Source: Paraprevotella xylaniphila YIT 11841 | GTDB lineage: Bacteria; Bacteroidota; Bacteroidia; Bacteroidales; Bacteroidaceae | Assembly (NCBI RefSeq): GCF_000205165.1 | Contig: NZ_GL883825.1 | Span: 1-64,000 of the forward strand | DNA: 64,000 nt | Reading direction: 5' to 3' | Program-made: the position numbers and the translations under genes | Shown here: positions 17,937 through 57,530 of the stretch, piece after piece | Numbering within the stretch: position 1 is the stretch's first letter | How the letters are laid out: the number at the start of each line of letters is the position of its first letter | The notes under the pieces: generated by a model | What the model was told of the DNA's origin: nothing | Seen by the model: only the letters and a program-made list of their open reading frames with translations | The model's database searches: none

Positions 17937-18089
17937 TTTGGCTGAAAGCGATTTTTCATTCACAGCCAAACGGAAAAAAGTTCTCCGCAGATTGAAACGC
18001 CTATGGCTTCCACCTGCGCCAAAAACAAGAAGAAAACGGAAATAAAACATGCCGAAAACACTCCATTTTCGTCTGGCTGAAACTTTTTT
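17937..18089. repeat. Intergenic TTTGGC element, several copies
   Basis: TTTGGCTGAAAGCGATTTTT (17937-17956), the inverted GCCAAACGGAAAAA (17965-17978), the inverted CTGCGCCAAAAA (18014-18025) and TTTTCGTCTGGCTGAAAC (from 18066) all match parts of the element at 29.7, 40.7 and 57.5 kb. This looks like a decayed cluster of copies. Confidence 0.6.
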
Positions 18090-18305
18090 GCCTACAAAAA
18101 AGAAAAACAAAAGGACAAAGAAAAACACTTTCCGCTTACAGCCATCTGAAAACACGGGCGGCAAACATGCCGTTCCGCCCCTCTTTGTAAAGTGCCAAGC
18201 GGATTTTCCTGTCCATTTGCCCGAAAGCCGATGCACGAGATTCGCGTATTCCGGCGCGACTTCCCTGCCGGCTGTATATAACGGATTCTCACACGGACAG
18301 GTTTG

Positions 18306-19865
18306 TCATTTTGACAGCCGCCGCCTTTTCCCGAACCGTCCGCCGATTTTTCTTTTCAATTCGGAAAACAAAGTAATCTCCTTACGAATCGCCGAAGCCG
18401 AAAGCCACACGCTGACACCTAATACGCATCCGCCTGCTGCGACCTTGAGCCATATTTCGGGCTGCATGCCCAAATACAAAGCCGCCGCCACGCAAAGAAA
18501 CTGCGCCGCGATGAACGAACGTGCCGCCTTGTCAGACTTGAAGCCGTAGCGTCGCCCGTATACGGCATAAATCATCCACCAATCGAACACTCCGGCCAAA
18601 GCCAAGGCAATTCCCGTGCCCAAAATACCCGCGTACACAAAACCGACCATCACGCACACGGCCATAAAGATGTCGTAGGCCGCCTCCATGCACAAATACA
18701 TGACGGCATCGCCTTTGGCCAACGAAGTATAAGCCACGGGGAGCGTCATCGATTTGAAAAACATGTGCATGGAAGCACACACCGCCATGCCTGTCATCGG
18801 TAAAAAAGAAGAGGTATACAACAACCTGACAACCAACGGCATGGATATCATGAATAAAACAAGAAAAGGCGACATGAGCAACACGCAGACTTTTATCTGC
18901 CGGTTGATGGCCAGATTCATCCGCCCAGCATCGGCATGTACCGACGACAAACGCGGAAAGTAATCGGCCTCTACTGCCGTGAACACCACCCCGGCGTAGG
19001 CAAACACCAGATTATAGCCCATGCCGTACAACCCCACGTCGGACAACGAGCCCCAATTGGTAATGAAAAGCGAAATCCCCATCCCTACCGACATGTTCAC
19101 CACCATGGCCATGATATAAGGCACGCCAACGCGTACCATGCTCCATCCCTTGCGGAAATACTCCCGGCTCAGCAAGTCCACGCACCAAGGAAAAACAGGC
19201 AAGGAAAGGCACAGATGGACGACCATTATCCCGAACGTGCTGACAACCAATGCTGGTACAACTCCCGAAATTCCCCAAAAGCAATAAAAAGGAATCGTCA
19301 ACAACAAAGTGGCCGCAGCCCCTAACACGGAAATCACAGCCACGCGCTTCAACCGCCGGACGGCTTTCAAGATAGAGATTTCACCCACCGTAACGGCCAT
19401 AAACCCCATAACGGGAGAAAGCAAACAGAGAGAAAGGATATGGGATGCATCGCCAAAAGCCCAATAACTTATGGCAGGCGACAACAACAGGCACAACAGC
19501 ATGCCGGCCCCCCCCGTCCATACGCTCCACGTACGCACCACTTCTACCTGCCGGAGAACTTTTTCCGGATGGTTTCCTCCGTAAAATTCCGCAATCTCCT
19601 TAATGGAACTGAACGAAATGCCCAGATTCGACGTGTTGTGCAGGAAACCGATGACGCTCTGGTACAAAGCCGAAAGTCCCACTCCGGCTGTACCGAGCAG
19701 AACGGCCGCCAATTTGTTACGCACCACGTTGACCAATATCGTAAGCACCTGTATGCCTCCCAGAAAACCCGTGTATTTTACGATGTGGTCGTAAGTCGCG
19801 TCTTCCCGGGCTTCCGTTTCTTCCGAGGCCGTCAAACCGTCTTTTATTTCTTGTGTCTCACTCAT
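18306..19865 (-). CDS. Oligosaccharide flippase (Wzx-like, MOP superfamily)
   Basis: A 519-residue polytopic membrane protein with about 12-14 hydrophobic segments. It probably flips a lipid-linked oligosaccharide across the inner membrane. The N-terminal cytosolic tail is acidic, followed by KYTGFLGGIQVLTILVNVV and NKLAAVLLGTAGVG, typical of Bacteroidetes O-antigen translocases. The start at 19865 (MSETQEI) is chosen because its promoter (TATCTTTG, minus strand 19884-19877) excludes the longer frame from 20009. It diverges from a three-gene glycosyltransferase run, which supports a role in exporting the glycan they build. Confidence 0.88.
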   Translation of the reverse strand: MSETQEIKDGLTASEETEAREDATYDHIVKYTGFLGGIQVLTILVNVVRNKLAAVLLGTAGVGLSALYQSVIGFLHNTSNLGISFSSIKEIAEFYGGNHPEKVLRQVEVVRTWSVWTGGAGMLLCLLLSPAISYWAFGDASHILSLCLLSPVMGFMAVTVGEISILKAVRRLKRVAVISVLGAAATLLLTIPFYCFWGISGVVPALVVSTFGIMVVHLCLSLPVFPWCVDLLSREYFRKGWSMVRVGVPYIMAMVVNMSVGMGISLFITNWGSLSDVGLYGMGYNLVFAYAGVVFTAVEADYFPRLSSVHADAGRMNLAINRQIKVCVLLMSPFLVLFMISMPLVVRLLYTSSFLPMTGMAVCASMHMFFKSMTLPVAYTSLAKGDAVMYLCMEAAYDIFMAVCVMVGFVYAGILGTGIALALAGVFDWWMIYAVYGRRYGFKSDKAARSFIAAQFLCVAAALYLGMQPEIWLKVAAGGCVLGVSVWLSASAIRKEITLFSELKRKIGGRFGKRRRLSK

Positions 19866-19876
19866 AATATAGGAGA

Positions 19877-19884
19877 CAAAGATA
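19877..19884 (-). promoter_or_regulatory. Flippase promoter -7 box
   Basis: TATCTTTG on the minus strand, 11 bases before the flippase ATG. It is only 22 bases from the oppositely oriented -7 box of the glycosyltransferase operon. Confidence 0.65.
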
Positions 19885-19906
19885 CGGCATTTCCATTTAT
19901 TTTCCG

Positions 19907-19914
19907 TACCTTTG
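19907..19914 (+). promoter_or_regulatory. Glycosyltransferase operon promoter -7 box
   Basis: TACCTTTG, 12 bases before the ATG at 19927. The expected leader is only a few bases long. Confidence 0.65.
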
Positions 19915-19926
19915 TCTAAAAATATC

Positions 19927-21030
19927 ATGAAAGTCCTATTACTTGGCGAATATAGTAACGTGCATTGGACCTTGGCACAGGGTCTACGTGCCTTGGGGCA
20001 TTCCGTCACAGTAGTGTCGGACGGTGACGGTTGGAAAAACTATCCTCGCGACATCGACTTGCATCGGAAGTCTACAGGAAAAATGGACACGATGGATTTC
20101 CTTTTCCGTGTGGCCCGGGCTCTCCCTTTCATGAGAGGATATGATGTGGTGCAACTCATCAATCCTGTTTTTCTCGAACTACGCGCGGAACGCCTGTTAC
20201 CCATTTACCGTTTCCTGCGCCGGCACAACCGGAAAGTATTTCTCGGGGCATTCGGCATGGACTATTACTGGGTAAAAACAGGGTTGGACCGCCAAGTATT
20301 CCGTTACTCCGACTTCAACATCGGAACGGAAATCCGAATGAACCCCGACAACGACCGGTTCATCGCCGAATGGCTGAACGGCCCCAAAGGCAAACTGAAC
20401 CGTTTCATAGCCGACGATTGCAACGGCATAGTCTGCGGCCTCTATGAATACGACGCTTGTTATCGGCAGCACTTTCCGGAAAAGACGCAATTCATCCCCT
20501 TCCCCATCAACTTGTCGGAAACCACGCCACACATCCCCCATCCCGAAACGGAACGGACGCGTTTTTTCATCGGCATACAACGCAAACGGAATGCTTACAA
20601 GGGGACAGACATCATGTACAAAGCATTGGTGGAATTAGCCGCACGTTATCCTGACCGGATAGAAATCGTGAAAGCGGAATCCGTACCGTTTGCACAATAT
20701 AGCCGGATGATGGACCACAGCGACGTGTTGTTGGACCAACTTTATTCCTACACGCCGGCCATGAACGCCCTGTGCGCCATGGCCAAGGGTCTGGTTGTCG
20801 TAGGAGGGGGTGAAGAGGAGAATTATGACATACTGAGGGAAAAAGAACTGCGCCCTATCGTCAACGTACTCCCTTCTTTTGATGACGTGTACGCTAAACT
20901 GGAAAGACTTATACAGCATCCTGAGGATATCGCCCGACTGTCTGCGGAAAGCACGCAATACGTCCGTCGCCATCACGACCACCTGAAAGTAGCGGAACAA
21001 TATGTCGAATTCTGGAAGAGTAGAACTTAA
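19927..21030 (+). CDS. Glycosyltransferase, GT-B type
   Basis: A 367-residue protein with the two Rossmann-like halves of GT-B enzymes: KVLLLGEYSNVHWTLAQGL at the N-terminus and a C-terminal nucleotide-sugar side (RNAYKGTDIMYKAL, DVLLDQLYSYTPAMNALCAMAKG, GGGEEENYDIL). It is GT4/GT1-like, but sugar and acceptor are unknown. The start at 19927 is preferred over the upstream TTG at 19912, which lies inside the promoter box. First gene of a three-gene operon that diverges from the flippase. Confidence 0.82.
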   Translation: MKVLLLGEYSNVHWTLAQGLRALGHSVTVVSDGDGWKNYPRDIDLHRKSTGKMDTMDFLFRVARALPFMRGYDVVQLINPVFLELRAERLLPIYRFLRRHNRKVFLGAFGMDYYWVKTGLDRQVFRYSDFNIGTEIRMNPDNDRFIAEWLNGPKGKLNRFIADDCNGIVCGLYEYDACYRQHFPEKTQFIPFPINLSETTPHIPHPETERTRFFIGIQRKRNAYKGTDIMYKALVELAARYPDRIEIVKAESVPFAQYSRMMDHSDVLLDQLYSYTPAMNALCAMAKGLVVVGGGEEENYDILREKELRPIVNVLPSFDDVYAKLERLIQHPEDIARLSAESTQYVRRHHDHLKVAEQYVEFWKSRT

Positions 21031-21055
21031 AACATTGAAGCCTTAAAAGCGAAGC

Positions 21056-21994
21056 ATGAAACTCACCATCATAATTCCTGTATACAAGGTGGAAGCCTAC
21101 CTTGACTTCTGCCTGAAAAGCATCGTCCGGCAAAACGTGGAAGACTATGAAGTCATCCTCGTGGACGATGGTTCGCCGGACGGAAGCGGAGCACTTTGTG
21201 ACGCATGGTTACGGAAAGACAGACGGTTCCGTGTCATCCATTGCCTTGAAAACCGTGGCCTGAGCGCGGCGCGCAACAAGGGACTGGATGAGGCACAGGG
21301 AGAATATGTCACATTCATTGACTCTGACGATTATATCTCCCCGAATACACTGCAAGCCAATATGGAATTGTTGGCCTTACACCCCGAAGCGGATGTCCTG
21401 GAATATCCCGTATGCGTTTACCACGGTACGGCAAAAGCCTACCGCTACATGCCCGGAGCATGCGAAATCACGGACTACACCGGATGGGCACGCCGCAAAG
21501 GTTACATACATAGTTATGCTTGGAACAAAATTTATAAACGCTCGTTGTGGAAGTCTCTCCGCTTTCCGGAAGGCAAATGGTATGAAGATGTCTTCACCAT
21601 CCCGGCCGTATTGCGCCAAGCACGATACATCCTGCGTTCGGACAAAGGGTTATATTATTATTGCAGTCGCCAAGGTTCTATCTCCAACACCTTCTGTGAC
21701 AAGGGTATCAACGACCTTCTTCAGGCCAACCTCATGTTATATCACACTTTGTCGGACAACACTGACCTGAGCGAACAGGATTTGGACGAGGCTTACTTAC
21801 ACTTGTGCGACCACCAAATCATGCGGATACAATTCGGAGGATACCTGTGTATCCCCGAACGCAAGATACCATTACACCGCGCCTTGTTTACCCCTCGTCC
21901 GCTGAACTACCGTATCAAAGCTATACTGAAAGCACTCAGCGGCAACCATTATTGCGGTATTGTGGCACGAACCCGTAAAGTACTAAAGCGATGA
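21056..21994 (+). CDS. Family 2 glycosyltransferase
   Basis: A 312-residue GT-A enzyme with the standard GT2 start LTIIIPVYKVEAYLDFCLKS, the nucleotide-binding VDDGSPDGSGALCD, the GLSAARNKGLD loop and the metal-binding FIDSDDY. Probably adds a sugar to a lipid-linked glycan on the cytosolic face of the inner membrane. It lies 25 bases after the first glycosyltransferase gene, and its stop overlaps the next start by four bases, so translation is probably coupled. The donor sugar is unknown. Confidence 0.9.
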   Translation: MKLTIIIPVYKVEAYLDFCLKSIVRQNVEDYEVILVDDGSPDGSGALCDAWLRKDRRFRVIHCLENRGLSAARNKGLDEAQGEYVTFIDSDDYISPNTLQANMELLALHPEADVLEYPVCVYHGTAKAYRYMPGACEITDYTGWARRKGYIHSYAWNKIYKRSLWKSLRFPEGKWYEDVFTIPAVLRQARYILRSDKGLYYYCSRQGSISNTFCDKGINDLLQANLMLYHTLSDNTDLSEQDLDEAYLHLCDHQIMRIQFGGYLCIPERKIPLHRALFTPRPLNYRIKAILKALSGNHYCGIVARTRKVLKR

Positions 21995-22986: not shown

Positions 22987-23061
22987 CTGACCGATTGTTT
23001 GCACAACAACAAAATAACATAAAAAGAGTTTATGAAAGAAGTATATCACAAAGTATTTGAC

Positions 23062-23161: not shown

Positions 23162-23210
23162 ATAAATCATACAACCCACACTCATATTCTTAGTTCAGCA
23201 GAATAAACAA

Positions 23211-23244
23211 ACAGAAAAGCGGTTACATTGAAATGTAACCGCTT
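23211..23244 (-). terminator. Terminator of the tRNA operon
   Basis: A perfect inverted repeat, GCGGTTACATT paired with AATGTAACCGC, at 23219-23242 is followed on the minus strand by TTTTCTG. It lies 16 bases after the tRNA-Glu gene. Confidence 0.85.
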
Positions 23245-23257
23245 GATTCACATTTTG

Positions 23258-23329: not shown

Positions 23330-23335
23330 TTGGAG

Positions 23336-27825: not shown

Positions 27826-27999
27826 AGTCGTATTTTTATATGCAAAAATGCAAAAAAGAATTCAAACAACCTCCTTCATACGTGTTTTTATGTACCTTCC
27901 CGACAAGTATTCTTCCCGAAAACCCGTAATTAATCAGAAAATCCATTTTCAATCATTGTTTTTTTTCTTTCAAAGCGTTTTCCATGGCACATTTTTTTG

Positions 28000-28007
28000 T
28001 ATTTTTG
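28000..28007 (+). promoter_or_regulatory. TPR gene promoter -7 box
   Basis: TATTTTTG, 66 bases before the start at 28073. It lies inside the longer upstream frame and so supports the later start. Confidence 0.55.
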
Positions 28008-28072
28008 CGCAGGATTATTTTACCCGAATCAAAAGAACGGAATTTGTTGAATCAACTAAAGAAAGGATAAAA

Positions 28073-29467
28073 ATGAAATTTACAAAAATTGCTACCGTCC
28101 TGGGAATGGCTGCCGTTTGCACACCTGCACTGGCCCAATACGAGGGGACAAGAGTATACGACCGTATCGGTCACGGGCAAGACAGTATCACGACCTTAGG
28201 CAATATCGTAGCCTACAAGGATAGCTACAAAGCTCAAGATTATGCCGGTGCATACGAACCATGGAAAGCCGTGCTCACCAAAGCCCCTTGCGCGGAAGTC
28301 AGCACGTATGCCTATGGCGCCATGATTTTGGCCAACGTATTAGTCAAAGAACCGGATTTGACCAAGAAAAAGGCTTACTTCCAAGAACTGATGGACATGT
28401 ACGATACGCGCCTGAAGAACCTTGACGCACTGAACTCCTTTACCAAACCGGACAAGCGCGCCACTAAAGGCGACATTCTGGCCCGTAAGGCTTTCGACTA
28501 TGCTTATTATGGCGCGGGCGTGGCCGACGGTTATTCGTTGGACAAAGCCTACACCATGTTCCGCGAGGGCATAGACCTTATTAATAAGGATGGCGCAAAA
28601 GAGGTTCCCGGTTTCGTATTGGATAAATTCTTTGAAATCTCATATCAAAGATACATGGCCGACTCCACCGCTTTCCGCGAACAGTTCCTGAAAGATTATA
28701 TGGAAAGTCGCGAGGCCTGCCAAGGCATGTTGAGCTTGGCCAACGAAGCGACAGATTCCGTGGCAGCCAAAAAGATTGTGGCACAGTACGACCCGACGCT
28801 GAACCGCATCGAAACCTTGTTCGCCCAATCCAAAGCAGCCGACCGCGAACAGCTCATTGCCATCTTCGGTCCGAAAATCGAAGAGAACAAAACGAATCTG
28901 GCTTATCTGAAGTCTGCGCTTACCTTGCTTTCGGCCAACAACTGCGATGACACCGACATTTATTTCAAGGCAGCCGAATATGCCTATAATATTGAGCCGA
29001 GCTACGAATCGGCCATCGGTACGGCACAAAAGTATTACAAGGACGGAAAAGTGGCCGAATCAGTGCAATATTATGATAAAGCTCTTGAATTATGCCCTAC
29101 CGACCAGACCAAAGCGGCCATTGCATTGAAGATTGCCAATGCCGTGTCTAAAACGGGAGACTCAGCCAAGGCATTTTCATATTTGGACAAAGCCGTGCAA
29201 TACAATGCCAAAATTGCCGGAAAGGCTCATTTGGTACGCGCACAGATTCTGGCCTCATCCAAAAACTTCTCAGAGGCTATCTCCTATTGTACGAAAGCAG
29301 CCCAGGAAGACGTCAGCATCTCCGGATCGGCCAACCGTCTGAAAGAGAAGATTCAGGAAGTACAGCGCAAGAATGCAGAGTACGAAAAGGCCAATGCCGA
29401 ATATAAGGCCCAGAAAGCAAAAATCGAGAAAGAAGAAAACTTCTGGAAAGCCGGAGGCAAACAATAA
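28073..29467 (+). CDS. Secreted TPR protein
   Basis: A 464-residue protein with a signal peptide (ATVLGMAAVCTPALAQ, cleavage near residue 20), so periplasmic or outer-membrane associated. The body contains TPR units (for example EPSYESAIGTAQKYYKDGK and VQYYDKALELCPTDQTKAAI), and a charged C-terminal helix rich in Lys, Glu and Ala (about 425-464). The start at 28073 is chosen because only this one gives an N-terminal signal peptide and lies after the promoter. No function can be assigned. Confidence 0.82.
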   Translation: MKFTKIATVLGMAAVCTPALAQYEGTRVYDRIGHGQDSITTLGNIVAYKDSYKAQDYAGAYEPWKAVLTKAPCAEVSTYAYGAMILANVLVKEPDLTKKKAYFQELMDMYDTRLKNLDALNSFTKPDKRATKGDILARKAFDYAYYGAGVADGYSLDKAYTMFREGIDLINKDGAKEVPGFVLDKFFEISYQRYMADSTAFREQFLKDYMESREACQGMLSLANEATDSVAAKKIVAQYDPTLNRIETLFAQSKAADREQLIAIFGPKIEENKTNLAYLKSALTLLSANNCDDTDIYFKAAEYAYNIEPSYESAIGTAQKYYKDGKVAESVQYYDKALELCPTDQTKAAIALKIANAVSKTGDSAKAFSYLDKAVQYNAKIAGKAHLVRAQILASSKNFSEAISYCTKAAQEDVSISGSANRLKEKIQEVQRKNAEYEKANAEYKAQKAKIEKEENFWKAGGKQ

Positions 29468-29556: not shown

Positions 29557-29695
29557 CCTTAAAGGAAACAAGTACACAGCCGGACATACACTTCGCAAGG
29601 GATACGGGACGTAAATATTTCAGACAAAAGAAGTGTATTCCGCATAGTACTGGTTTTCAACGGTTTGAGATTGGAGAAAAAATCTCCTGAGAATG

Positions 29696-29761
29696 AAAAA
29701 TCAATCTCAGCCAAACGAAAAATCATTCGGCTGAGATTGATTTTTCGTTTGGCGCAGAAAA
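29696..29761. repeat. Intergenic element with 17-bp inverted repeat
   Basis: AAAAATCAATCTCAGCC (29696-29712) and its exact inverse (29729-29745) flank a 16-base loop, followed directly by CGTTTGGCGCAGAAAA. The same tail, with a shorter stem, occurs at 57471-57530. Confidence 0.75.
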
Positions 29762-32466: not shown

Positions 32467-32504
32467 ACCTAACGGCGGCTTCTGCCGCAAGGTCCATCCC
32501 GTAA

Positions 32505-32560
32505 TAGGAAACTCCTCCGGCCGACTACCGCAAAGCGATGTCAGCCGGAGGAGTTTCCTA
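32505..32560. terminator. Perfect 17-bp bidirectional terminator hairpin
   Basis: The arms TAGGAAACTCCTCCGGC (32505-32521) and its exact complement (32544-32560) sit between the convergent xylE and panE-like genes. Confidence 0.75.
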
Positions 32561-32588
32561 TTTCAGTTTCTGCTCGGGCTGTCCTCGT

Positions 32589-38183: not shown

Positions 38184-40193
<2,010 letters not shown>

Positions 40194-40266
40194 TCAATGA
40201 TAAACCCTGACGGGGAGACATCGCGACCCTGTTCCCGCGAACGGCTCCCCCCGTCATTCGCATAAG

Positions 40267-40274
40267 CAAAGATA
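40267..40274 (-). promoter_or_regulatory. ligA promoter -7 box
   Basis: TATCTTTG on the minus strand, 73 bases before the ligA start. Confidence 0.55.
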
Positions 40275-40690
40275 GTCAATTCGCAGAAAACGCCCAAGGG
40301 CGCAAAGAAAAAAGAAAAGCATCCTTTTCCGGCACAACCTGTCAAAACGTCAATCCCATACCTTCGAGAATCGTCCATTCGCTCCTCCCTTCGGCCTTGA
40401 TGGCAAATAAGCGACGCACCGCGCCTCCCGAAAAAATCAAAAAGACAGCCTGACAGCTTTTTCACAAAACAAAAGCAAACGGAAACCACTTGTCCTCCGC
40501 TTCTTTCTTCTTCCGGTGAAACCTGCGGAGCGGAACCGCAAACATTCTGTCCGTAAATTCTTGTCGGCGAAAAACAGGGAAATAGAACGAAAAAGCCGCA
40601 AAAAAGCAGTTTTTCTCTTCTTCGTGCGGCGAAAAATTTCCATTTCGGACGGATTTTTTCCACGACATGCGGAGTACCCGGATTTTATAT

Positions 40691-40738
40691 GAGGAAAGAA
40701 ATTTTTCGTTTGGCTGCAAACGATTTTTTTCTTTCCTC
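40691..40738. repeat. Intergenic element, palindromic form
   Basis: The outer arms GAGGAAAGAA and TTCTTTCCTC pair, as do the inner CGTTTG and CAAACG around GCTG. The centre TTTTTCGTTTGGCTGCAAAC matches the copies at 17.9 and 29.7 kb. Confidence 0.7.
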
Positions 40739-40908
40739 AAAGTAAATGAATATATACTGCATAAAACAGTAAAAACGACACGAAAATTGCATACTTATAC
40801 ATTCCTGTCTTTTTAAATTCTCCTAACCGCTGTCTTTTGAAACTACTGATTTGGAGCAGAAAGTAGCAAAATGTCAGAATCATCATTTCAAATCCGCCCG
40901 ATTATACT

Positions 40909-40941: not shown

Positions 40942-42177
40942 ATGGAGATAGCAATCATTGGCGGAGGAGCGGCCGGCTTCTTTTTGGCCGTCAACCTGAA
41001 AACATTCGCGCCGCAGGTGGAGGTCACGGTATTCGAAAGACAGGCGGATGTATTGAAAAAAGTACTGGTTTCGGGCGGCGGACGCTGCAACCTGACCAAT
41101 ACTTTTGAAGGTGTGACAGACCTGAAACAGGTCTACCCCCGTGGACATAAGCTCTTGAAAGGGCTTTTCAAACAGTTCGGACATCGGGATGCCTACCGAT
41201 GGTTCGAAGCGCACGGCGTGCCGCTCGTCGCGCAAGATGACCATTGTGTGTTTCCGACCGCACAGGATGCCCGTGCCGTAACCGGTTGCCTGAAAAGCCT
41301 TGCTGCGGAACTGGAGGTCACAGTGAAAACCTCCCACCGCGTGGAAACCCTCACGCCTAGCGGCGGGAAGTATGAAATTACTTTCCAGGATGTGCGCCAA
41401 GGCCGTCTGCTATTCGACTGCGTGGCCGTCACCACCGGTGGTTCACCGCGTGGCGAAAGCTTCGCTTATCTGGAACGGTTGGGGCATCGCATCGAAACGC
41501 CCGCCCCTTCTCTCTTTACGTTCAACATCGCCTCCCCGGCACTGCGCGGGCTGATGGGCTCCGTGGTGAACCCGGTATCGGTCGGCATCCCCTGCACCAA
41601 ATTCAGGCACTCTGGCGCGTTGCTCGTCACCCATTGGGGCATGAGCGGGCCGGCCATCCTGAAATTGTCTTCCCATGCCGCCCGTCTTATACAAGAGAAA
41701 GCTTACCGCTTCCCCATTTTCGTCAACTGGACAAACGAGACTAACAGCGAAACCGTAACCGGCATCCTGCAAGACATGGCGCAACGCCACCCCCAAAAGA
41801 AAATCTCCGGCTTGCGCCCGTACGACTTGCCTGCGCGGTTATGGCATTACCTCATCGGTAAATCCGGCATCGCCCCCGACCGGAAGTGGAACGAACTGGG
41901 ACACAAAGGGATTTGCAAGTTGGCCGACACGTTATGCAACGACCGCTACGACGTGGACGGCAGGAGCACGTTCCGCGAAGAGTTCGTCACGTGTGGAGGA
42001 GTAAGCCTCGAATCGGTACACCGACAGACGTTGGAAAGCAAGACCTGTCCCGGGCTTTACTTTGCAGGCGAGGTGCTCGACATTGATGGCGTGACGGGGG
42101 GATTCAACTTCCAAGCTGCCTGGACCACAGCCTACACTGTGGCACGGGCCATTGCCAGCCATATACCAACGGCATAA
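40942..42177 (+). CDS. HI0933/BaiN-family flavoprotein oxidoreductase
   Basis: A 411-residue FAD-binding protein with the dinucleotide motif IAIIGGGAAGFFLAVNL, the family signature VSGGGRCNLTN near residue 50, TTGGSPRGES and the closing GEVLDIDGVTGGFNFQAAW. These mark the HI0933/YhiN family, which includes the bile-acid-related BaiN flavoproteins. The reaction of this member is not known; only FAD binding and an oxidoreductase role are safe. A single gene with its own promoter, facing the M56 sensor genes. Confidence 0.88.
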   Translation: MEIAIIGGGAAGFFLAVNLKTFAPQVEVTVFERQADVLKKVLVSGGGRCNLTNTFEGVTDLKQVYPRGHKLLKGLFKQFGHRDAYRWFEAHGVPLVAQDDHCVFPTAQDARAVTGCLKSLAAELEVTVKTSHRVETLTPSGGKYEITFQDVRQGRLLFDCVAVTTGGSPRGESFAYLERLGHRIETPAPSLFTFNIASPALRGLMGSVVNPVSVGIPCTKFRHSGALLVTHWGMSGPAILKLSSHAARLIQEKAYRFPIFVNWTNETNSETVTGILQDMAQRHPQKKISGLRPYDLPARLWHYLIGKSGIAPDRKWNELGHKGICKLADTLCNDRYDVDGRSTFREEFVTCGGVSLESVHRQTLESKTCPGLYFAGEVLDIDGVTGGFNFQAAWTTAYTVARAIASHIPTA

Positions 42178-42247: not shown

Positions 42248-43897
42248 TTATTGAAGACGGAACTCCACGGGAATGGTGTAAGAAGCGTCTACCGGCTCTC
42301 CGTTTACTTTTCCGGGAGTCCATCTCGGCATTTTCTTCACGATGCGTGCCGCTTCTGCCTCCAACTGCTTCGCCAGATTCATCCGAACGGGTTTTGTCAC
42401 GTCTATGACTTCCGTCGTGAACGTCCGGATATGGTCTGCATCAATCCGACCATCCGCCCTGACCATGAACTCACAATAAACCGTACCTTGCAGCAAAGCC
42501 TCTTGGCATGCCTTGGGATAACGGATATTCCGGGCGATGAAATCCCTCATGGCCGCCGCGCCACCGGGATAGCAAGGCATTGTCTCTGTACGGTAATACA
42601 CGCCTTGATGCTTCATCTTGGCTCCCTCCAATTGCAGATAATAGGAAGCTGAATCTTTGGCAGCCTGAAGTTCAGACTTGTCCTTGTCGGTCATAAGGAC
42701 CGCCTCCTTGAATTCCACCGCCTCGGGATTCAGACGGGAACGGTAAGAAGTAGTCACCACGACTTTTTCCATCGCCCCAGACTGTATGGCCACATTGGCC
42801 GAGCCGTTCTCCTTCTTGGCCGGAACGGATTTCTGTTTGGCCGGGATTGTTTTGGAAACCTTGGTTCCCTTTACTTCGCCTTGCACCACCGGACGCAAGC
42901 TTTCAGAAGACACGTTTTTCACTGTAGCCGACAAATCGGCCACCGTAACGGCAGAAATCCGATCCAGGCCTCCGTCTATCCGGCTTGTCATTTCAGGACG
43001 GGCAAATGCCACTGTGGCAAATGCGCCTACGGGCAGCAAATACATGTACTTCAATACCGCCCACTTGTTTGTTTTTTTGTTTGTCATCATCATGATACGT
43101 TTTTTAAGTGTACTTTGGGTCAAGCCGTTGGCAAAAGATTGCAGTCGGGAGCCGACGGCCTTTTTTATTAAATAAAGTTGATAATTCTTCGCGTTGATGC
43201 CTTGATTCAGCACGTACTCGTCGGCCTGATATTCATGGATGCATCGCATGTCCATCTCCATCATCCAGACCACTGGATTGAACCATTGCACGGCTTCCAC
43301 GGCAAGCATCCACAACGTGTCGTAGGAATGTCCGTAAAGCACGTGGGCTTTCTCGTGGACGTATATCGCATGGCCGGCCTCGCCCTCCAAGTCCTCTTCC
43401 GACATGACAATACAGTGCATCCAACTGAACGGTGACACGGGACGGGCATGGCAATACAATGTGATGCCGCCCTCACGGCCTTCTTTCCACAAACATCCCC
43501 GGGAAACGAACCGGCGCATGCACACCCACTGCCACAACCGTATGACCAACGACATTGTCACACCGGCAAGATACAGGCCGACCAAAAACATAGGCCAGAC
43601 GGGTACGGCTTCTTCGCGACTCCCGCTATCCGGCATAGCAAGCACATCTGCCTGCTCCAACCGTTCCACCAGCACGGCGTATGTACCTTCGGGCATTGCC
43701 GTCTGCCATGAACGGACCGTGCCCCCGAACCACTCTTCCTGCACCAACGGCAACAAGAATGCAGCTACCGACAGGACATGCAATGCCATACGGCTCAAAC
43801 GGTGGTGCTTCTCCCCACGCAACAACAACGTGTAAGGCAAGTAAAGCAACGTCAGGCAAAACGCCGACTTGATGATGTAGACTAAAAATGTTCCCAT
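42248..43897 (-). CDS. BlaR1-like M56 peptidase/TonB_C membrane protein (copy 2)
   Basis: A 549-residue membrane protein. N-terminal transmembrane helices (MGTFLVYIIKSAFCLTLLYL and others, to about residue 130) lead to an M56 peptidase domain with the zinc motif HEKAH near residue 190 and the second ligand in HEYQADEYVL. One more membrane helix (YMYLLPVGAFATVAFA near 300) is followed by a periplasmic linker and a TonB C-terminal-like domain (ARNIRYPKACQEALLQGTV). It is probably a sensor that cleaves or inactivates the BlaI-type repressor. It is a tandem paralogue of the next gene upstream, 85 bases away. Confidence 0.85.
   Translation of the reverse strand: MGTFLVYIIKSAFCLTLLYLPYTLLLRGEKHHRLSRMALHVLSVAAFLLPLVQEEWFGGTVRSWQTAMPEGTYAVLVERLEQADVLAMPDSGSREEAVPVWPMFLVGLYLAGVTMSLVIRLWQWVCMRRFVSRGCLWKEGREGGITLYCHARPVSPFSWMHCIVMSEEDLEGEAGHAIYVHEKAHVLYGHSYDTLWMLAVEAVQWFNPVVWMMEMDMRCIHEYQADEYVLNQGINAKNYQLYLIKKAVGSRLQSFANGLTQSTLKKRIMMMTNKKTNKWAVLKYMYLLPVGAFATVAFARPEMTSRIDGGLDRISAVTVADLSATVKNVSSESLRPVVQGEVKGTKVSKTIPAKQKSVPAKKENGSANVAIQSGAMEKVVVTTSYRSRLNPEAVEFKEAVLMTDKDKSELQAAKDSASYYLQLEGAKMKHQGVYYRTETMPCYPGGAAAMRDFIARNIRYPKACQEALLQGTVYCEFMVRADGRIDADHIRTFTTEVIDVTKPVRMNLAKQLEAEAARIVKKMPRWTPGKVNGEPVDASYTIPVEFRLQ
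43124..43243. repeat. 120-bp direct repeat, copy in second M56 gene
   Basis: Identical over 120 bases to 44859-44978 in the first M56 gene. It encodes the IHEYQADEYVL and KKAVGSRLQSFANGL region. The flanking sequence is clearly more diverged. Confidence 0.85.
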
Positions 43898-43982: not shown

Positions 43983-45632
43983 TCATTGCAAGCGGAAAGT
44001 CACCGGTAAAGAAAAACGGGTAGCCACCGCCTTGCCGTCTTTTTGGCCGGGTATCCATTTCGGCATCTTTTCTATCACCCTCACGGCTTCCTGTGCCAAA
44101 AGGTCGAACATCTCCTTGGATGCAGGCAGCCCGGCTTCGGTCACGCCACCTTCCATCGCACTCGCCTCGACATTACTGATGCTTCCGTCTATGCTTACTA
44201 CGAAACGGCACACGACTTTCCCCGTAACCCCATTTTCCACACACTTCTTCGGATACCTTATATTATAGGCAACGAACTTCATGCACTCGGCTTCTCCTCC
44301 GGCGAATTGCGGGTTCACGTCGACTTTTTCATAGACTTTCTGCCCTTTGGCCTTATAAGCTTTTTTCTTGACATAGAAGTATGTCGCACGAGATTCAGGC
44401 TTGCCTGACCGGACAACCGTCCCTTCCCCTTCCACGACCGTGGTGCCAGTTATCTTCATCCGTGCGGAATCAGATTTAAGGGCCGGTGCCGTCACGGTAA
44501 CCTTACCCACCGTTCCGTCCAACGCATCATAAAGCGAATCTTTCCGCCCCGGCAGAACAGTAAAGCTCATCTTTCCTTTAACTTTTTCCGTGTTTTCTGC
44601 GACTTTTTCTGTTTTTAAAAGTTCCGGCTGTACATTTTCAGCCGCGACGGTTTTCACAGTTGCAGATAAATCCGTAACTTTGACGGCAGAAATCTGCTCG
44701 AATTGTCCGTCTACTCGGTTCGCCATCTCGGGACGGGCAAATGCCATTGTGGCAAATGTGCCCACCGGCAGCAAATACATATACTTCAATGCTGCCCATC
44801 TGTTTGATTTTCTGTTACACATCATAGCAATACGTTTTTTAAGTGTGCTTTGATTCAGGCCGTTGGCAAAAGATTGCAGTCGGGAGCCGACGGCCTTTTT
44901 TATTAAATAAAGTTGATAATTCTTCGCGTTGATGCCTTGATTCAGCACGTACTCGTCGGCCTGATATTCATGGATGCAGCGCATGTCCATCTCCATCATC
45001 CAAATCACGGGATTGAACCATTGTATGGCTTCGGCCGCCAACATCAGCATCGTGTCATAGGAATGCCGGTGGAGCACATGGGCTTTCTCATGGGCAAAGA
45101 TAGCCTCACCCGCCGCGCCCTCCAAATCTTCTTCGGACATGACCACGCAACACATCCAACTGAACGGGGCCACAGGACGGGCATGGCAATAGAGCGTGAT
45201 GCCGTCCTCACGGCACTCTTTCCACAAACATCCCCGGGGAATAAACCATCGCATGCGGCCGAACTGCCATAGGCGTACCGCTAACGACACGGCCACCCCG
45301 ACCCAATACATTCCCACCAAGACCATGGGCCATACCGGAACAGGCGTCCCTGCCGTAACCACTACCGTAGGTAGAAAATGGCCGGTGCTGTCAAGCTGCC
45401 CAATCAGCGATGCATATACACCATCGGGTACAGCCGTCTGCCAAGAATGCCACCCTTGCCCGAACCACTCCTCCTGCGCCAACGGAAGCAAAAAAGAAGC
45501 CACCAAAATGGCAAACAATGCCATGCGGTTCAGACGATGCAACTTCTCCTTACGTAATAACAAGGTATAAGGCAGATAAAGCAACGTCAGGCAAAACGCC
45601 GACTTGATGATATAGACTAAAAAAGTTCCCAT
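43983..45632 (-). CDS. BlaR1-like M56 peptidase/TonB_C membrane protein (copy 1)
   Basis: A 549-residue paralogue of the downstream gene, with the same order: membrane helices, M56 domain (HEKAH; HEYQADEYVL), a further membrane helix, linker and TonB_C-like domain (AYNIRYPKKCVENGVTGKV). Its linker (about 325-430) differs strongly from copy 2 and the M56 core is nearly identical. It lies 55 bases after the repressor gene, the order expected of blaI-blaR modules. The signal sensed is unknown; no beta-lactamase gene is nearby. Confidence 0.85.
   Translation of the reverse strand: MGTFLVYIIKSAFCLTLLYLPYTLLLRKEKLHRLNRMALFAILVASFLLPLAQEEWFGQGWHSWQTAVPDGVYASLIGQLDSTGHFLPTVVVTAGTPVPVWPMVLVGMYWVGVAVSLAVRLWQFGRMRWFIPRGCLWKECREDGITLYCHARPVAPFSWMCCVVMSEEDLEGAAGEAIFAHEKAHVLHRHSYDTMLMLAAEAIQWFNPVIWMMEMDMRCIHEYQADEYVLNQGINAKNYQLYLIKKAVGSRLQSFANGLNQSTLKKRIAMMCNRKSNRWAALKYMYLLPVGTFATMAFARPEMANRVDGQFEQISAVKVTDLSATVKTVAAENVQPELLKTEKVAENTEKVKGKMSFTVLPGRKDSLYDALDGTVGKVTVTAPALKSDSARMKITGTTVVEGEGTVVRSGKPESRATYFYVKKKAYKAKGQKVYEKVDVNPQFAGGEAECMKFVAYNIRYPKKCVENGVTGKVVCRFVVSIDGSISNVEASAMEGGVTEAGLPASKEMFDLLAQEAVRVIEKMPKWIPGQKDGKAVATRFSLPVTFRLQ
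44859..44978. repeat. 120-bp direct repeat, copy in first M56 gene
   Basis: Partner of 43124-43243, same orientation, 1735 bases apart. Confidence 0.85.
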
Positions 45633-51009: not shown

Positions 51010-51013
51010 ATAT

Positions 51014-52439: not shown

Positions 52440-52457
52440 ACCGACGCATCGAGACGT

Positions 52458-54023
52458 ATGAATGAAATAGAAAGAAGAAGGACTTTTGCCATTATTTCCC
52501 ATCCGGACGCCGGAAAGACCACACTCACCGAAAAATTATTGCTCTTCGGCGGGCAAATCCAAGTGGCCGGAGCAGTCAAGAACAACAAAATCAAGAAAAC
52601 AGCCACCAGCGACTGGATGGAAATCGAAAAACAACGCGGTATCTCGGTCACGACCTCTGTCATGGAGTTCGATTACGGGGATTATAAGGTGAACATCTTG
52701 GACACCCCGGGACACCAAGACTTTGCAGAAGATACATTCCGAACGCTGACAGCGGTAGACAGCGCCATCATTGTCGTAGACAGTGCAAAAGGCGTGGAGG
52801 CGCAGACCCGGAAACTGATGACGGTATGCCGTATGCGCAAAACGCCGGTCATCATCTTCATCAACAAGATGGACCGTGAGGGAAAAGACCCCTTCGACCT
52901 CTTGGACGAGTTGGAACAGGAATTACAGATTAAAGTACGCCCGCTCTCATGGCCCATCAACCAAGGACAGCGCTTCAAAGGAGTGTACAACATCTACGAG
53001 CAACGCCTCGACCTGTTCACGCCCGACAAGCAAAAGGTAACGGAAAAGGTGGAAGTGGACATCCACAGCGATGCACTCGAAAACCACGTAGGCGATGCCG
53101 ATGCAGAAAAGTTACGCATGGACCTGGAACTGGTAGACGGGGTTTATCCGTCATTCGATGTAAACACTTACCTGAATGGCGAAGTGGCACCTGTTTTTTT
53201 CGGGTCGGCCTTGAATAACTTCGGTGTGAAAGAGTTGTTGGACTGCTTCGTAAAGATAGCTCCCAGCCCACACCCCATACAGGCGGAAGAACGCATGGTG
53301 CGCCCGGAAGAGCCGAAGTTCAGCGGCTTCATCTTCAAAATCACAGCCAACATCGACCCGAACCACCGTTCGTGTATCGCCTTCTGCAAGGTATGTTCCG
53401 GCAAGTTCGTGCGCAACGCGCCTTACCTGCATGTACGCCAAAACAAGACGCTGCGCTTTTCTTCGCCCACACAGTTCATGGCTCAAAAGAAGAGCACCAT
53501 CGACGAGGCTTGGCCCGGCGACATCGTGGGACTGCCGGACAACGGCATATTCAAGATCGGCGACACGCTGACCGAAGGAGAGATGATACATTTCCGCGGA
53601 CTGCCGAGTTTCTCTCCCGAAATGTTCAAATACATCGAGAATGCCGATCCCATGAAGACCAAGCAACTGAACAAGGGTATCGAACAGTTGATGGACGAGG
53701 GCGTGGCACAGCTCTTCGTCAACCAGTTCAACGGACGGAAAATCATCGGTACGGTAGGACAGTTGCAGTTTGAAGTGATACAATACCGCCTGGAGAACGA
53801 GTACAATGCCCAATGCCGTTGGGAACCCGTCAGCCTGTACAAGGCGTGCTGGATAGAAAGCGATGACGAAGCACAGCTGGAAGCCTTCAAAAAGCGCAAG
53901 TACCAGTTCATGGCCAAGGACCGCGAAGGCCGCGACGTTTTTTTGGCCGACAGCAACTACGTTCTCCAGATGGCACAGAGCGACTTCGAGCACATCAAAT
54001 TCCATTTCACTAGCGAATTTTAA
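52458..54023 (+). CDS. prfC: Peptide chain release factor 3
   Basis: GTPase that recycles release factors 1 and 2 from the ribosome. The 521-residue protein has G1 [15 protein letters not shown], the switch region [12 protein letters not shown]3 DTPGHQDF and G4 INKMDRE, followed by the RF3-specific domains ([20 protein letters not shown], and [15 protein letters not shown] near the C-terminus). Length is normal. It lies 18 bases after rfbD in the same run of genes. Confidence 0.95.
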
Positions 54024-54045
54024 AGTTTAAACCAAACCAACGGAC

Positions 54046-54615
54046 ATGAATAGAGAAGAAGACATCAGACAGGCAGTAGAAGTCATGCGCCGGGGTGGCG
54101 TCATCCTCTACCCTACGGACACGATATGGGGCATCGGTTGCGATGCCACTAACGAAGAGGCGGTACGCCGTGTGTACGACATCAAGAAGCGCGACGACAG
54201 CAAGGCACTCATTTGCTTGGTAGACTCCGACCATCGGTTGCAGCGTTACGTAAGCGACGTGCCCAACGTGGCTTGGGACTTGATAGAATATGCCACCCGT
54301 CCGCTCACCATCATTTTCGACAAGGCCAAGAACTTGGCCCCCAACCTGTTGGCCGAAGACGGCAGCGTGGGAATACGCGTCACCCGTGAAGAATTCAGCC
54401 GAGAGTTGTGTTACCGTTTCCAGAAAGCCGTCGTGTCCACCTCAGCCAACGTGAGCGGCGAGCCTTCGCCGGCTTGTTTCGATGACATCAGCGACGAGAT
54501 AAAAAACGCGGTAGACTACATTGTGCAAAGCCGCAGGAAAGAAAAGACAAAAGCAGCTCCCAGTAGCATCATCAAATTGCGTCCGGACGGCGAAGTGACC
54601 ATCATCAGGAAATAA
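54046..54615 (+). CDS. Sua5/YciO/YrdC protein (threonylcarbamoyl-AMP synthase)
   Basis: A 189-residue YrdC-fold protein, expected to make threonylcarbamoyl-adenylate for the t6A37 tRNA modification. Motifs: GGVILYPTDTIWGIGCDA, KKRDDSKAL, RPLTIIFDKA, SVGIRVTREEF and STSANVSGEPSP. It is the short TsaC form without the Sua5 C-terminal domain. YciO-like proteins of unknown role look similar, so the assignment to TsaC is probable and not certain. Cotranscription with prfC is likely (22-base gap). Confidence 0.88.
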   Translation: MNREEDIRQAVEVMRRGGVILYPTDTIWGIGCDATNEEAVRRVYDIKKRDDSKALICLVDSDHRLQRYVSDVPNVAWDLIEYATRPLTIIFDKAKNLAPNLLAEDGSVGIRVTREEFSRELCYRFQKAVVSTSANVSGEPSPACFDDISDEIKNAVDYIVQSRRKEKTKAAPSSIIKLRPDGEVTIIRK

Positions 54616-54627
54616 GCGGAAGGAGCT

Positions 54628-56427
54628 ATGAACGCGGTAAAAAGGAATTTCACATTTTTCGAACGCCTGTTCATCTGGCGGCGGATGAATTTCAGCGAAC
54701 AGAAATTCATCCTGATAATTAGTTTGGTGGTCGGTGTACTGACCGCTTTCGCCGGACTCTTCCTGAAATGGCTCATCCATCAGATACAATACCTCCTGAC
54801 CTACCGTTTCGATGCCACTGGTTCCAACGCCCTTTACCTGGTGTATCCCGTCATCGGCATTTTCCTGACGGGACTGTTCGTCCGCTATGTCGTAAAGGAC
54901 GACATCAGCCATGGTGTCACCAAGATTCTCTTCGCCATCGCACGCAAACAAAGTAAAATCAAGGTCCACAACACCTGGTCAAGCGTCATAGCCAGTGCCA
55001 TTACCATCGGGTTCGGAGGTTCCGTAGGGGCAGAAGCCCCCATCGTGCTCACCGGTTCGGCCATCGGCTCCAATCTCGGACGCCTGTTCCGCATCAACAG
55101 CAAGACCCTGATGCTTTTGGTGGGTTGCGGAGCGGCAGGTGCCGTGGCAGGCATCTTCAAAGCCCCGATTGCCGGGCTTGTATTCACCCTCGAAGTCCTC
55201 ATGATAGACCTCACGATGGGAGCTTTGCTGCCTTTGCTGATTTCATGCGTGACGGCGGCCGGAGTGACATTCGCCGTATCGGGTACGAACACTATCTTTG
55301 AGTTCCATCTGCAAAACGGATTCGCCGTAGACAAAATACCGGCCTACATCCTTTTGGGCATCTTCTGCGGACTGGTATCGCTTTATTTCACCCGCACGAT
55401 GAACTCGCTGGAAGACATCTTCCGCAAATATTCCAACCCTTACGTCAAGCTCCTCATCGGCGGAGCCACGCTGAGCGTCCTTATTTACCTTTTCCCTTCG
55501 TTGTACGGAGAAGGCTACGACCTTATCAACCTGCTGCTGAACGGGAACGGCGCGAAAGACTGGGACACGGCGATGGACAGTTCGCTGTTCTACGGACACG
55601 GCAACCTGTTGTTGCTTTACCTGGCGTTGGTACTTATCTTCAAAGTCTTCGCCTCCACGGCCACCAACGGTGGCGGAGGTTGTGGCGGTATTTTCGCCCC
55701 CAGCCTGTTTTTGGGTTGTATCTCTGGCTTTATTTTCGCCCGCCTTTGGAACTTCTACCGTTGTCTGGGCATTTACTTGCCCGAACGGAATTTTGCCATG
55801 ATCGGCATGGCGGGACTGATGAGCGGTGTCATGCACGCCCCACTGACAGGCATATTCCTTATCGCGGAACTCACCGGAGGCTATCAGCTATTCATGCCCC
55901 TGATGATCGTATCCGTCTGTGCCTACCTGACCATCATTTCTTTCGAGCCCCACAGCATCTATTCCATGCGTTTGGCCAAGAAAGGCCAGTTGCTCACGCA
56001 CCATAAAGACCGCGCCATACTCACGCTGATGAGTCTCGACTCGGTTATCGAGAAATACGACGAATACCTGTATCCGGACATGGATTTGAGCGAATTGGTA
56101 AAAACCATCTCGGCTTCGCGCCGCGACGTGTTCCCGGTGGTGGACCGCCAGCACCGTCTGGTGGGTATCATTTATCTGGACGATGTCCGCCCCATCATGT
56201 TCCGGCAGGAATTGTACCACCGTTTCCAAATCGGCCAACTGATGAAAGAGCCGGTGGCTCGCCTGAACATTGACGACTCCATGGACGTAGTGCTGCTCAC
56301 GTTAGACAAGACTCAGGCTTGGACGCTCCCGGTAGTAGACACGGAAGGCACGTTCATGGGCTTCATCCGCAAGTCGCACGTGCTGACCCTTTACCGTAAG
56401 ACCCTGGCCGACTTATCCGACGACTAA
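54628..56427 (+). CDS. ClC-family chloride channel/transporter with CBS domains
   Basis: A 599-residue membrane protein. The ClC core (about 25-430) shows GFGGSVGAEAPIVLTGSAIGS (selectivity filter with the gating Glu), GAAGAVAGIFKAPIAGLVF and GGGCGGIFAPSLFLGCISG. Two CBS domains follow in the cytosol (about 455-599; for example RRDVFPVVDRQHRLVGIIYL). Channel or H+/Cl- exchanger activity cannot be told from this. It lies 12 bases after the TsaC gene and 11 before fmt. Confidence 0.9.
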   Translation: MNAVKRNFTFFERLFIWRRMNFSEQKFILIISLVVGVLTAFAGLFLKWLIHQIQYLLTYRFDATGSNALYLVYPVIGIFLTGLFVRYVVKDDISHGVTKILFAIARKQSKIKVHNTWSSVIASAITIGFGGSVGAEAPIVLTGSAIGSNLGRLFRINSKTLMLLVGCGAAGAVAGIFKAPIAGLVFTLEVLMIDLTMGALLPLLISCVTAAGVTFAVSGTNTIFEFHLQNGFAVDKIPAYILLGIFCGLVSLYFTRTMNSLEDIFRKYSNPYVKLLIGGATLSVLIYLFPSLYGEGYDLINLLLNGNGAKDWDTAMDSSLFYGHGNLLLLYLALVLIFKVFASTATNGGGGCGGIFAPSLFLGCISGFIFARLWNFYRCLGIYLPERNFAMIGMAGLMSGVMHAPLTGIFLIAELTGGYQLFMPLMIVSVCAYLTIISFEPHSIYSMRLAKKGQLLTHHKDRAILTLMSLDSVIEKYDEYLYPDMDLSELVKTISASRRDVFPVVDRQHRLVGIIYLDDVRPIMFRQELYHRFQIGQLMKEPVARLNIDDSMDVVLLTLDKTQAWTLPVVDTEGTFMGFIRKSHVLTLYRKTLADLSDD

Positions 56428-56438
56428 AAACTAAAGAC

Positions 56439-57419
56439 ATGAAAAAGAAAGAAGATTTGAGAATTGTATATATGGGCACACCGGAGTTCGCGGTGGAGAG
56501 CCTGAAATGCTTGGTAGAAGGAGGTTACAACGTGGTCGGTGTCGTCACCATGCCGGACAAACCGATGGGCCGCCACCAGGACGTACTGCAAGCCAGCCCC
56601 GTGAAACAGTACGCTGTGGAACACGGCCTGCGTATCTTGCAACCGGTCAAGCTGAAAGACGAAACCTTTGTGGAAGAACTCCGCTCCCTACGTGCCGACC
56701 TACAAATCGTGGTAGCTTTCCGCATGTTGCCCGAAGTAGTGTGGAACATGCCTCCCATGGGTACATTCAACCTGCATGCGTCGTTGTTGCCGCAATACCG
56801 TGGGGCCGCCCCCATCAACTGGGCCGTCATCAACGGCGAAACGGAAACGGGCATCACCACGTTCTTCCTCAAACATGAAATCGACACCGGCGAGGTCATC
56901 CAACAAGTGCGCATCCCGATTGCGGACACCGACAATGTGGGCGTGGTGCACGACAAACTGATGGAACTCGGCGGCCGGTTGGTAGTGGAGACGGTAGACC
57001 ACATCTTGGCCGATGCCGTCCGCCCCATACCGCAAGAAACGATGGCAGTGGAAGGCCCGTTGCACCCGGCACCGAAAATCTTCAAGGAGACGTGCCGGAT
57101 GGATTGGCAGGGCAAGACGCTCAAGCAACTGTATGATTTCGTACGCGGCTTGTCGCCCTACCCTGCCGCGTGGAGCGAGATGAAGGACGAAGCCACAGGC
57201 AAGGTTTATACCCTTAAAATATACGAAACGGAGAAAGAGCCGTGTGCGTGCCACGAACCGGCGGGCAAAGTGGTCAGCGACGGAAAGACCTACCTGAAAG
57301 TGGCCGTAGACGGAGGTTACCTCCGCCTGAAGGAAATCCAACTGACGGGCAAGAAAAGGATGCGCACAGAAGACTTCCTGCGGGGTTTCCGTATGCCGGA
57401 AAATCTCCTCATGCTATAG
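56439..57419 (+). CDS. fmt: Methionyl-tRNA formyltransferase
   Basis: Formylates Met-tRNA-fMet using 10-formyl-tetrahydrofolate. The 326-residue protein shows RIVYMGTPEFAVESLK at the start, the catalytic set NLHASLLPQYRGAAPINWAV (Asn, His and following loop), GITTFFLKHEIDTGEV and a C-terminal OB-fold domain (about 210-326). Length is normal. It is the last gene of the plus-strand run; def is not adjacent. Confidence 0.95.
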   Translation: MKKKEDLRIVYMGTPEFAVESLKCLVEGGYNVVGVVTMPDKPMGRHQDVLQASPVKQYAVEHGLRILQPVKLKDETFVEELRSLRADLQIVVAFRMLPEVVWNMPPMGTFNLHASLLPQYRGAAPINWAVINGETETGITTFFLKHEIDTGEVIQQVRIPIADTDNVGVVHDKLMELGGRLVVETVDHILADAVRPIPQETMAVEGPLHPAPKIFKETCRMDWQGKTLKQLYDFVRGLSPYPAAWSEMKDEATGKVYTLKIYETEKEPCACHEPAGKVVSDGKTYLKVAVDGGYLRLKEIQLTGKKRMRTEDFLRGFRMPENLLML

Positions 57420-57470
57420 AATCCGTAAAGGAAATTCAACGCCCGAATCGTTCGCCGCAGAACGGAAAAT

Positions 57471-57530
57471 CAATCTCAGGAGATTGAAAAATCGTTCGCC
57501 TGAGATTGAAAAATCGTTTGGCGCAGAAAA
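57471..57530. repeat. Intergenic element with CAATCTCAGG stem
   Basis: CAATCTCAGG (57471-57480) and CCTGAGATTG (57499-57508) form the stem; AAAAATCGTTTGGCGCAGAAAA-type tail follows (57509-57530). Closely related to 29696-29761. A weaker TCGTTCGCCGCAGAA unit lies just upstream (about 57449). Confidence 0.75.

Follow-up and report, generated by a model that had tools for sequence, protein, structure and literature searches.

What kind of sequence recurs between genes in Paraprevotella xylaniphila YIT 11841, and is it a mobile repeat or one kept in place? The question is raised by a 64,000-nucleotide (nt) stretch of its genome (contig NZ_GL883825.1, positions 1 to 64,000; hereafter the window), in which four intergenic gaps carry the same short, A/T-rich core. 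The initial annotation of the window proposed a genome-wide family of short palindromic repeats, either resembling repetitive extragenic palindromic (REP) sequences or forming a non-autonomous miniature inverted-repeat transposable element (MITE). The core proves to be merely the commonest word of a stricter pattern, a 22-bp lattice in which A/T tracts alternate with asymmetric 14-mers. On balance we consider it probable, though by no means assured, that this lattice is a vertically inherited, DNA-level array of dyads at gene ends, similar to the bacterial interspersed mosaic elements (BIMEs), under constraint and partly renewed by template switching.

A 22-bp lattice and its grammar

The window is part of contig 21 of a 3.79-Mb genome in 87 contigs (G000). 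Within it the core TTTTTCGTTTGGC was matched 12 times with at most two mismatches, against 3.85 expected, a count reached in none of 100 shuffles; across the whole genome AATCGTTTGGC gave 59 matches (reversed control, 0) and the 13-bp core with at most one mismatch gave 90 (control, 22). Core matches formed 110 clusters, of which 105 were examined (101 plus the four in the window) and five were left out. A profile of 22 columns was trained on this genome and cut at 11.4 bits, a score reached by five shuffled positions of the examined sequence; it recognised 97 elements and 268 units there, the elements being mostly 2–4 units long and ten of them single-unit. Since the examined sequence covers 116 of the 167 lattice-pattern matches in the genome, the whole genome can be extrapolated to hold roughly 140 elements.

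The lattice is a chain of period 22, which runs from a tract of the form GA-W4-TC through a 7-base word, RWTYNNN, and a mirrored word to the next tract; tracts and 14-mers are both found in either orientation. The tract was exactly GATTTTTC or GAAAAATC in 122/268 units, and the leading words were GTTTGGC (116), AATCTCA (51), AATCTGC (30), ATTTGGC (29) and GTTCTGC (28). The last three bases of a word place it in one of two classes (class I: GGC, GCC, TCC; class II: TCA, TGC, TAA, ACA, GCA), and a 14-mer typically joins one of each: class I x class II centres accounted for 156 of 171 inner 14-mers, with approximately 80 expected were words drawn independently, while class I was never joined to class I (39 expected) and class II to class II only six times (43 expected). 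A single 14-mer was exactly palindromic, against 13.6 expected, and the orientation of the I x II 14-mers was mixed (71:85). These classes were derived from the same data on which they are counted here, and are borne out by the sister species P. clara (80/95 centres) and by a third species (34/36), in which TCCGCA is the commonest centre. Neighbouring tracts were alike in 105 cases; an A tract on the left with a T tract on the right was seen 49 times, compared with 11 for the reverse (53, 31 and 9, respectively, in P. clara). Several copies of short forms had TCTGCGCCAAACGAAAAATC at both ends, as inverted ends. Palindromes of the GCATATATGC type directly adjoin several lattice copies (window 17900-17930; loci L083, L097, L120 and L136).

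Among 18 genomes of the genus, the lattice pattern was matched 167 times in P. xylaniphila (control 0), 196 times in P. clara (G188, taken as this species for its match counts and listed match places, which equal those of the genome with the P. clara locus L039) and 38 times in the third species (G204), and at most twice in each of the other 15, with controls of 0–1. In a draw of 198 genomes from across the order the next highest counts were 24, 20 and 19 (controls 3, 3 and 1), and the matches in those three genomes were scattered singles, mostly with an A/T-rich centre, none lying 22 nt apart among the matches listed. Presence throughout the order was therefore rejected: none of the other 197 genomes exceeded 24 matches, and 22-nt neighbours were missing among the listed matches of the top three. 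GATTTTTCGTTTGGC was found in 2/201 genomes of the family, and the 20 stretches with GATTTTTCGTTTGGCGCAG in named genomes comprised 15 from Paraprevotella clara YIT 11840, one from another Paraprevotella and four from other organisms. Spread by plasmids was also rejected, the 29.7 kb element of the window, which alone was queried, having no match in the plasmid collection. A single origin of the lattice in the three species is possible; a one-gene tree of ligA placed G204 beside P. xylaniphila and P. clara with weak support (36). Lattice copies lie near contig ends in G204 contigs C21, C31, C54, C90, C107 and C146, and the family may break assemblies.

Gene ends, shared sites and change in place

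With genes called by a simple home-made codon-usage caller, 96/97 elements lay outside genes: 35 in convergent, 38 in tandem and 14 in divergent gaps, and nine at stretch edges. The upstream stop codon was the nearer in 31 of the 38 tandem gaps. Element-free gaps of at least 100 bp numbered 21 convergent, 127 tandem and 76 divergent, a clearly different distribution (p ~3e-9), and the convergent enrichment held under other gap limits (p 6e-10 to 1e-8). Across 519 kb, consisting of three whole P. clara contigs and the window, 0/29 matches fell in genes, which make up 82% of that sequence, and convergent gaps were 8/16 of those with lattice versus 43/256 of the others (p 0.0035); this is not an independent sample, as two of the contigs were picked for their multiple core hits and the third corresponds to the window. 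A coding origin is ruled out by the period of 22 and the absence of these matches from genes. The initial annotation had suggested counting the core in the genome and its relatives, and both the recurrence in P. clara and the intergenic excess agree with the genome-wide, intergenic family that it foresaw.

Sites were compared with P. clara on whole contigs C19, C41 and C48 and, for C84, on two stretches that surround core hits. Elements were testable where both flanks aligned (15/97, in one close species pair), and in all 15 the lattice was present in the same gap of P. clara, 14 on whole contigs and one on C84; single-unit elements below 16 bits were excluded, seven loci with one aligned flank were unclassed and most others had no counterpart in these contigs. 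No empty site or insertion polymorphism was seen among these 15. Elements changed approximately half as fast as their intergenic flanks (changed sites: elements 55/924, intergenic flanks 690/6251, coding sequence 296/5043; p 6e-7), and 11/15 loci were individually slower than their own flank. The difference held without the C84 locus, whose stretch was picked for a core hit (43/858 versus 624/5664), and a wider, more biased set, made up of the 23 of 30 aligned loci gap-free enough to count, gave 183/1774 for elements versus 159/1051. Ten P. clara stretches aligned to their P. xylaniphila loci at 86–95%, and one extra segment at 67%.

The comparison extends to the third species, in which 19 G204 elements were examined and seven had no comparable sequence. 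For 9 of the 12 others, lattice lay beside the orthologous flank, within a span reaching from 120 nt before the predicted place to 400 nt past it, the words differing and the flanks aligning at approximately 69–87%. The targets were mostly stretches cut around elements, and hence biased, and orthology was judged by flanks rather than by gene boundaries; on whole P. clara contigs the proportion with lattice was 3/4.

Some lattice units differ between P. xylaniphila and P. clara as blocks. At L087, ATTCTCAGCCGAAC is matched in P. clara by its exact reverse complement, the inversion of a 14-mer (among random 14-mer pairs, a fraction of 0.0005 are exact reverse complements). L051/L174 shows an exact 22-nt inversion, tract included, and at L116 a tract is exactly inverted. 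At L076/L181 P. clara alone has an arm that copies its neighbouring unit perfectly in inverted form, and at L139/L177 P. clara is longer by one 22-nt unit. From these few exact inversions, one arm matching its neighbour and one gain or loss of a unit, we infer template switching, in which quasi-palindromes would fold back during replication and the polymerase would switch template. Two outcomes of switching between inverted repeats are stated in PMC8604942, homogenisation of the arms and inversion of the spacer, and in published accounts of quasipalindrome mutation (PMC8604942, PMC7202029, PMC8794818) both resemble what is seen at a few loci here. Those accounts describe a process at single inverted repeats, one by which an entire repeat family may partly be evolving here. 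With substitution added, arms would be homogenised, spacers flipped and words turned over while the lattice persisted, and present-day evolution of the lattice would need no mobilising enzyme.

The four elements of the window

A profile scan picks up all four gaps (at 17.94, 29.68, 40.69 and 57.45 kb) that had been grouped together as one repeat family. None of the four is assigned a strand. Element 1 (17936..17993; profile span 17943-17986) has two units, scoring 15.3 and 14.8, and reads TGAAAGC-GATTTTTC-ATTCACA/GCCAAAC-GGAAAAAA-GTTCTCC/GCAGATT. It lies between two convergent genes, one of the GH30 family (16228-17799, +) and one for polysaccharide biosynthesis (18306-20009, -), and P. clara carries it at the corresponding site, with a few changes. 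Element 2 (29681..29760; profile span 29666-29753), downstream of a gene for a tetratricopeptide-repeat protein (27848-29467, +), has four units, a weak first at 5.2 followed by three at 23.2, 28.6 and 24.9, the three strong units being identical in P. clara. Its stem, GCCAAACGAAAAATCA/TGATTTTTCGTTTGGC, is perfect, as had been reported, and pairs over 16 bp in the fold rather than the 17 claimed. Element 3 (40686..40743; profile span 40693-40736) is borderline, with two units at 12.8 and 10.6: a GAGGAAAGAAA/TTTCTTTCCTC stem encloses a single 14-mer, GTTTGGC/TGCAAAC, flanked by two T tracts. Its gap is divergent, between ligA (38184-40193, -) with a short open reading frame (ORF; 40178-40663, -) and a gene for a flavin adenine dinucleotide (FAD) enzyme (40942-42177, +). 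Element 4 (57450..57529; profile span 57457-57522), convergent between fmt (56439-57419, +) and an ABC-2 permease gene (57689-58780, -), comprises three same-direction units with A tracts, scoring 23.7, 26.7 and 24.9. Elements 3 and 4 are both identical in P. clara.

As DNA, elements 1–4 each gave a fold more stable than their shuffles did on average (z -2.1, -6.5, -7.4 and -3.9), the fold of element 1 being equalled by 8/200 shuffles. Terminator calling returned nothing near 57.5 kb, where a stem picked out by eye, AACGCCTTGCA/TGCAAGGCGTTTTT, encloses a long loop. A known structured RNA was rejected as a candidate, an Rfam scan of the window at gathering scores giving only two tRNAs.

Two further pieces had been counted with the family and fall outside it. 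The supposed weak fifth copy at 69-112 scored 2.7 bits, below threshold; it ranks among the window's 30 best-scoring positions and may have decayed from a true copy, and the P. clara contig has no alignment to window positions 1-262. The piece at 18.06 kb (18065-18077) lies in a stretch whose profile score tops out at -6.2.

Elsewhere in the window, a 23-bp inverted repeat with 96% complementarity and arms 14 nt apart (32503-32562), just past the end of an xylE-like gene, looks like a bidirectional terminator. The adjacent ORFs at 42248-43897 and 43983-45632, each of 549 amino acids and with parts 74–83% identical in DNA, are by their similarity a tandem gene duplication.

Mobility, RNA hairpins and constraint on DNA

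The layout of the lattice is that of BIMEs, and it is a variant of that known type. As BIMEs and REP sequences are described (PMC3733652, PMC2817692), both they and the lattice are intergenic, present in high copy and palindromic, with evenly spaced units in mixed orientation, mainly in unidirectional and convergent gaps. By the same descriptions they differ in their units, tagged REPs of 20–40 bp as opposed to the untagged 22 bp of the lattice, which comes without the domain of a REP-associated tyrosine transposase (RAYT) and has, in addition, a word-mosaic grammar and in-place inversions. The lattice also resembles REPINs, described as inverted pairs of short repeats that form hairpins (PMC3116915), and the BrickBuilt MITE of Porphyromonas gingivalis, another member of the Bacteroidales, which is intergenic, has a short period (23 nt) and, like the lattice, is described as varying in unit number, among strains, at fixed loci (PMC4596501). 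BrickBuilt is, however, presented there as a head-to-tail 23-nt direct repeat with a leader and a tail, in 19 copies, whereas lattice units take both orientations, mostly 2–4 to an element, in an estimated ~140 elements. A literature search, covering titles and abstract openings of the papers listed from one library, found no Paraprevotella repeat of the lattice type.

Mobility was considered in two forms. Were the lattice a REP, REPIN or BIME proper, mobilised by a RAYT, its palindromic, intergenic and mosaic make-up, mixed orientation and numbers would be as observed. Two super-families of REP sequences have been described, GTAG and CGTC (PMC3733652). Neither tag was enriched near element ends (GTAG/CTAC 7/190 versus 5/190 in the control; CGTC/GACG 12/190 versus 10). 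The search for a RAYT that the initial annotation had suggested, made with the Y1_Tnp domain (PF01797), was positive in 5/14 control genomes and found no match in P. xylaniphila or P. clara, both rated 100% complete; REPINs depend on RAYT. The lone Y1_Tnp match among the 18 genomes of the genus, L151, is in G087, which has no lattice match. CGTC-type REPs reportedly have no dedicated transposase (PMC3733652), so a missing RAYT does not by itself exclude a REP of that type. With tags and enzyme both wanting, mobilisation by RAYT is very unlikely, and the label 'REP-like' suits the layout and location of the lattice but neither its ends nor its enzymology. The idea of a MITE in motion is not supported either, as all 15 testable sites are shared with P. 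clara and target duplication is not clear (8-mers 0/96, shuffled 2.0; 6-mers 28/96, shuffled 20.8, standard deviation 3.9, none clear). A relic MITE, which would have spread before the species split by means of a transposase since lost or unrecognised and is now passively inherited, predicts the shared sites equally well, and the high copy number and the short forms with TCTGCGCCAAACGAAAAATC at both ends are in its favour. The best argument for it is that approximately 28 of the 97 elements lie inside three longer composite intergenic repeat families, defined by blast matches of flanks (ten loci, L054, L066, L074, L091, L115, L118, L124, L129, L130 and L137; ten, L062, L081, L086, L101, L108, L110, L111, L125, L142 and L149; eight, L060, L072, L073, L080, L087, L089, L104 and L123), which may be the older mobile context of the lattice's spread and which keep an ancient origin by transposition possible. 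The want of clear target duplications, a divergence about half that of the flanks and a lattice still recognisable in the third species beside flanks aligning at approximately 69–87% speak against passive inheritance, and we regard the relic as conceivable but doubtful. Chance composition, through an A/T-rich core common in the genome, is scarcely credible: the 22 control matches of the core with one mismatch, and the 24 lattice matches reached in A/T-rich genomes of the order, stand against 59 versus 0 for AATCGTTTGGC, 167 versus 0 for the lattice and none of 29 matches in genes.

Selection as RNA, for bidirectional terminators or for stabilising hairpins at 3' ends, would account for the 3' and convergent location, the strong folds and a slight preference for fold-stable arrangements. 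Terminator-like sites, scored by a home-made rule run without a null, were held on either strand by 34/97 elements (with margins of 20–25 nt) and overlapped an element at 29/88 gene ends in P. xylaniphila and 23/50 in P. clara, overlaps which keep this explanation alive. Simple terminators as the whole answer were nonetheless rejected, because a separate terminator-like site was as frequent, or more so, at element-bearing 3' ends (34/88, versus 36/143 without, in P. xylaniphila; 12/50 versus 40/160 in P. clara); this separate site preceded the element in 25/34 and 10/12 cases, respectively. Nor did the units clearly favour one strand with respect to tandem genes, 14-mers lying with:against the gene at 39:26 in P. 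xylaniphila and 12:15 in P. clara, and T:A tracts on the coding strand numbering 61:48 and 37:24. Long hairpins as the chief constraint were likewise discarded, as flips of modules shift fold energy only slightly. An RNA-level role seems rather unlikely.

Several observations weigh against our preferred reading, that of a constrained DNA-level array partly renewed by template switching. The terminator-like overlaps are among them, as are the folds: measured against random flips, the actual arrangements had a mean fold percentile of 0.44, with 13/61 below 0.1 (Kolmogorov–Smirnov p 0.03), and against random swaps 0.42, with 14/61 below 0.1 (p 0.001), while the A-left/T-right tract bias (49 versus 11) leaves room for constraint at the level of the hairpin. 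Element divergence equalled or exceeded that of the flank at 4/15 loci, and 4/60 profile matches in the P. clara stretches, all of them single units, were inside called genes. The elements were gathered through the core and so form a non-random sample, in which about five profile matches may be chance. Exact inversion affected 1/89 orthologous 14-mers, and near inversions at L064, L131 and L135 carry little weight; of 14-mers with at least three differences, 5/23 lay nearer to the reverse complement, a share lower than the 43% seen in random pairs, and 2/23 were within one difference of it (random, ~0.5). Point change in place is therefore commoner than inversion, and the exact flips fit a minority that carries the signal of template switching.

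Such an array would retain a property of the DNA in its duplex or extrudable form, namely the regular spacing of dyads and A tracts at two helical turns. The tolerated flips, and the lack of a clear direction relative to transcription, point, if less firmly than the other evidence, to a property of this kind; as an A tract forms an identical duplex whichever strand carries it, a function in duplex DNA would predict tolerance of flips. Enterobacterial BIMEs bind gyrase and IHF, and DNA polymerase I (Pol I) is a further binder. By analogy with these, the most likely role, itself a guess, would be that of a platform bound by a dimeric nucleoid or topology protein where transcription units end. 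A bolder statement, which we put forward as tentative and more doubtful than not, is that what has been inherited is a grammar, the 22-bp dyad lattice with its class I x class II centres, and not a sequence, and that it has long been kept at fixed gene-end sites, regenerating itself by template switching without a transposase, as an array for a putative DNA-binding or topology protein.

REP and BIME repeats are often credited to RAYT mobility; in the large Paraprevotella lattice family no RAYT domain is detectable, the testable elements have stayed in place, and some units have been flipped or recopied between sister species. How palindromic repeats persist, and why they are retained at gene ends, thereby become directly testable questions in a human gut commensal. 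The lattice would offer a natural record of bacterial template switching, and could be one reason why assemblies break in the genus.

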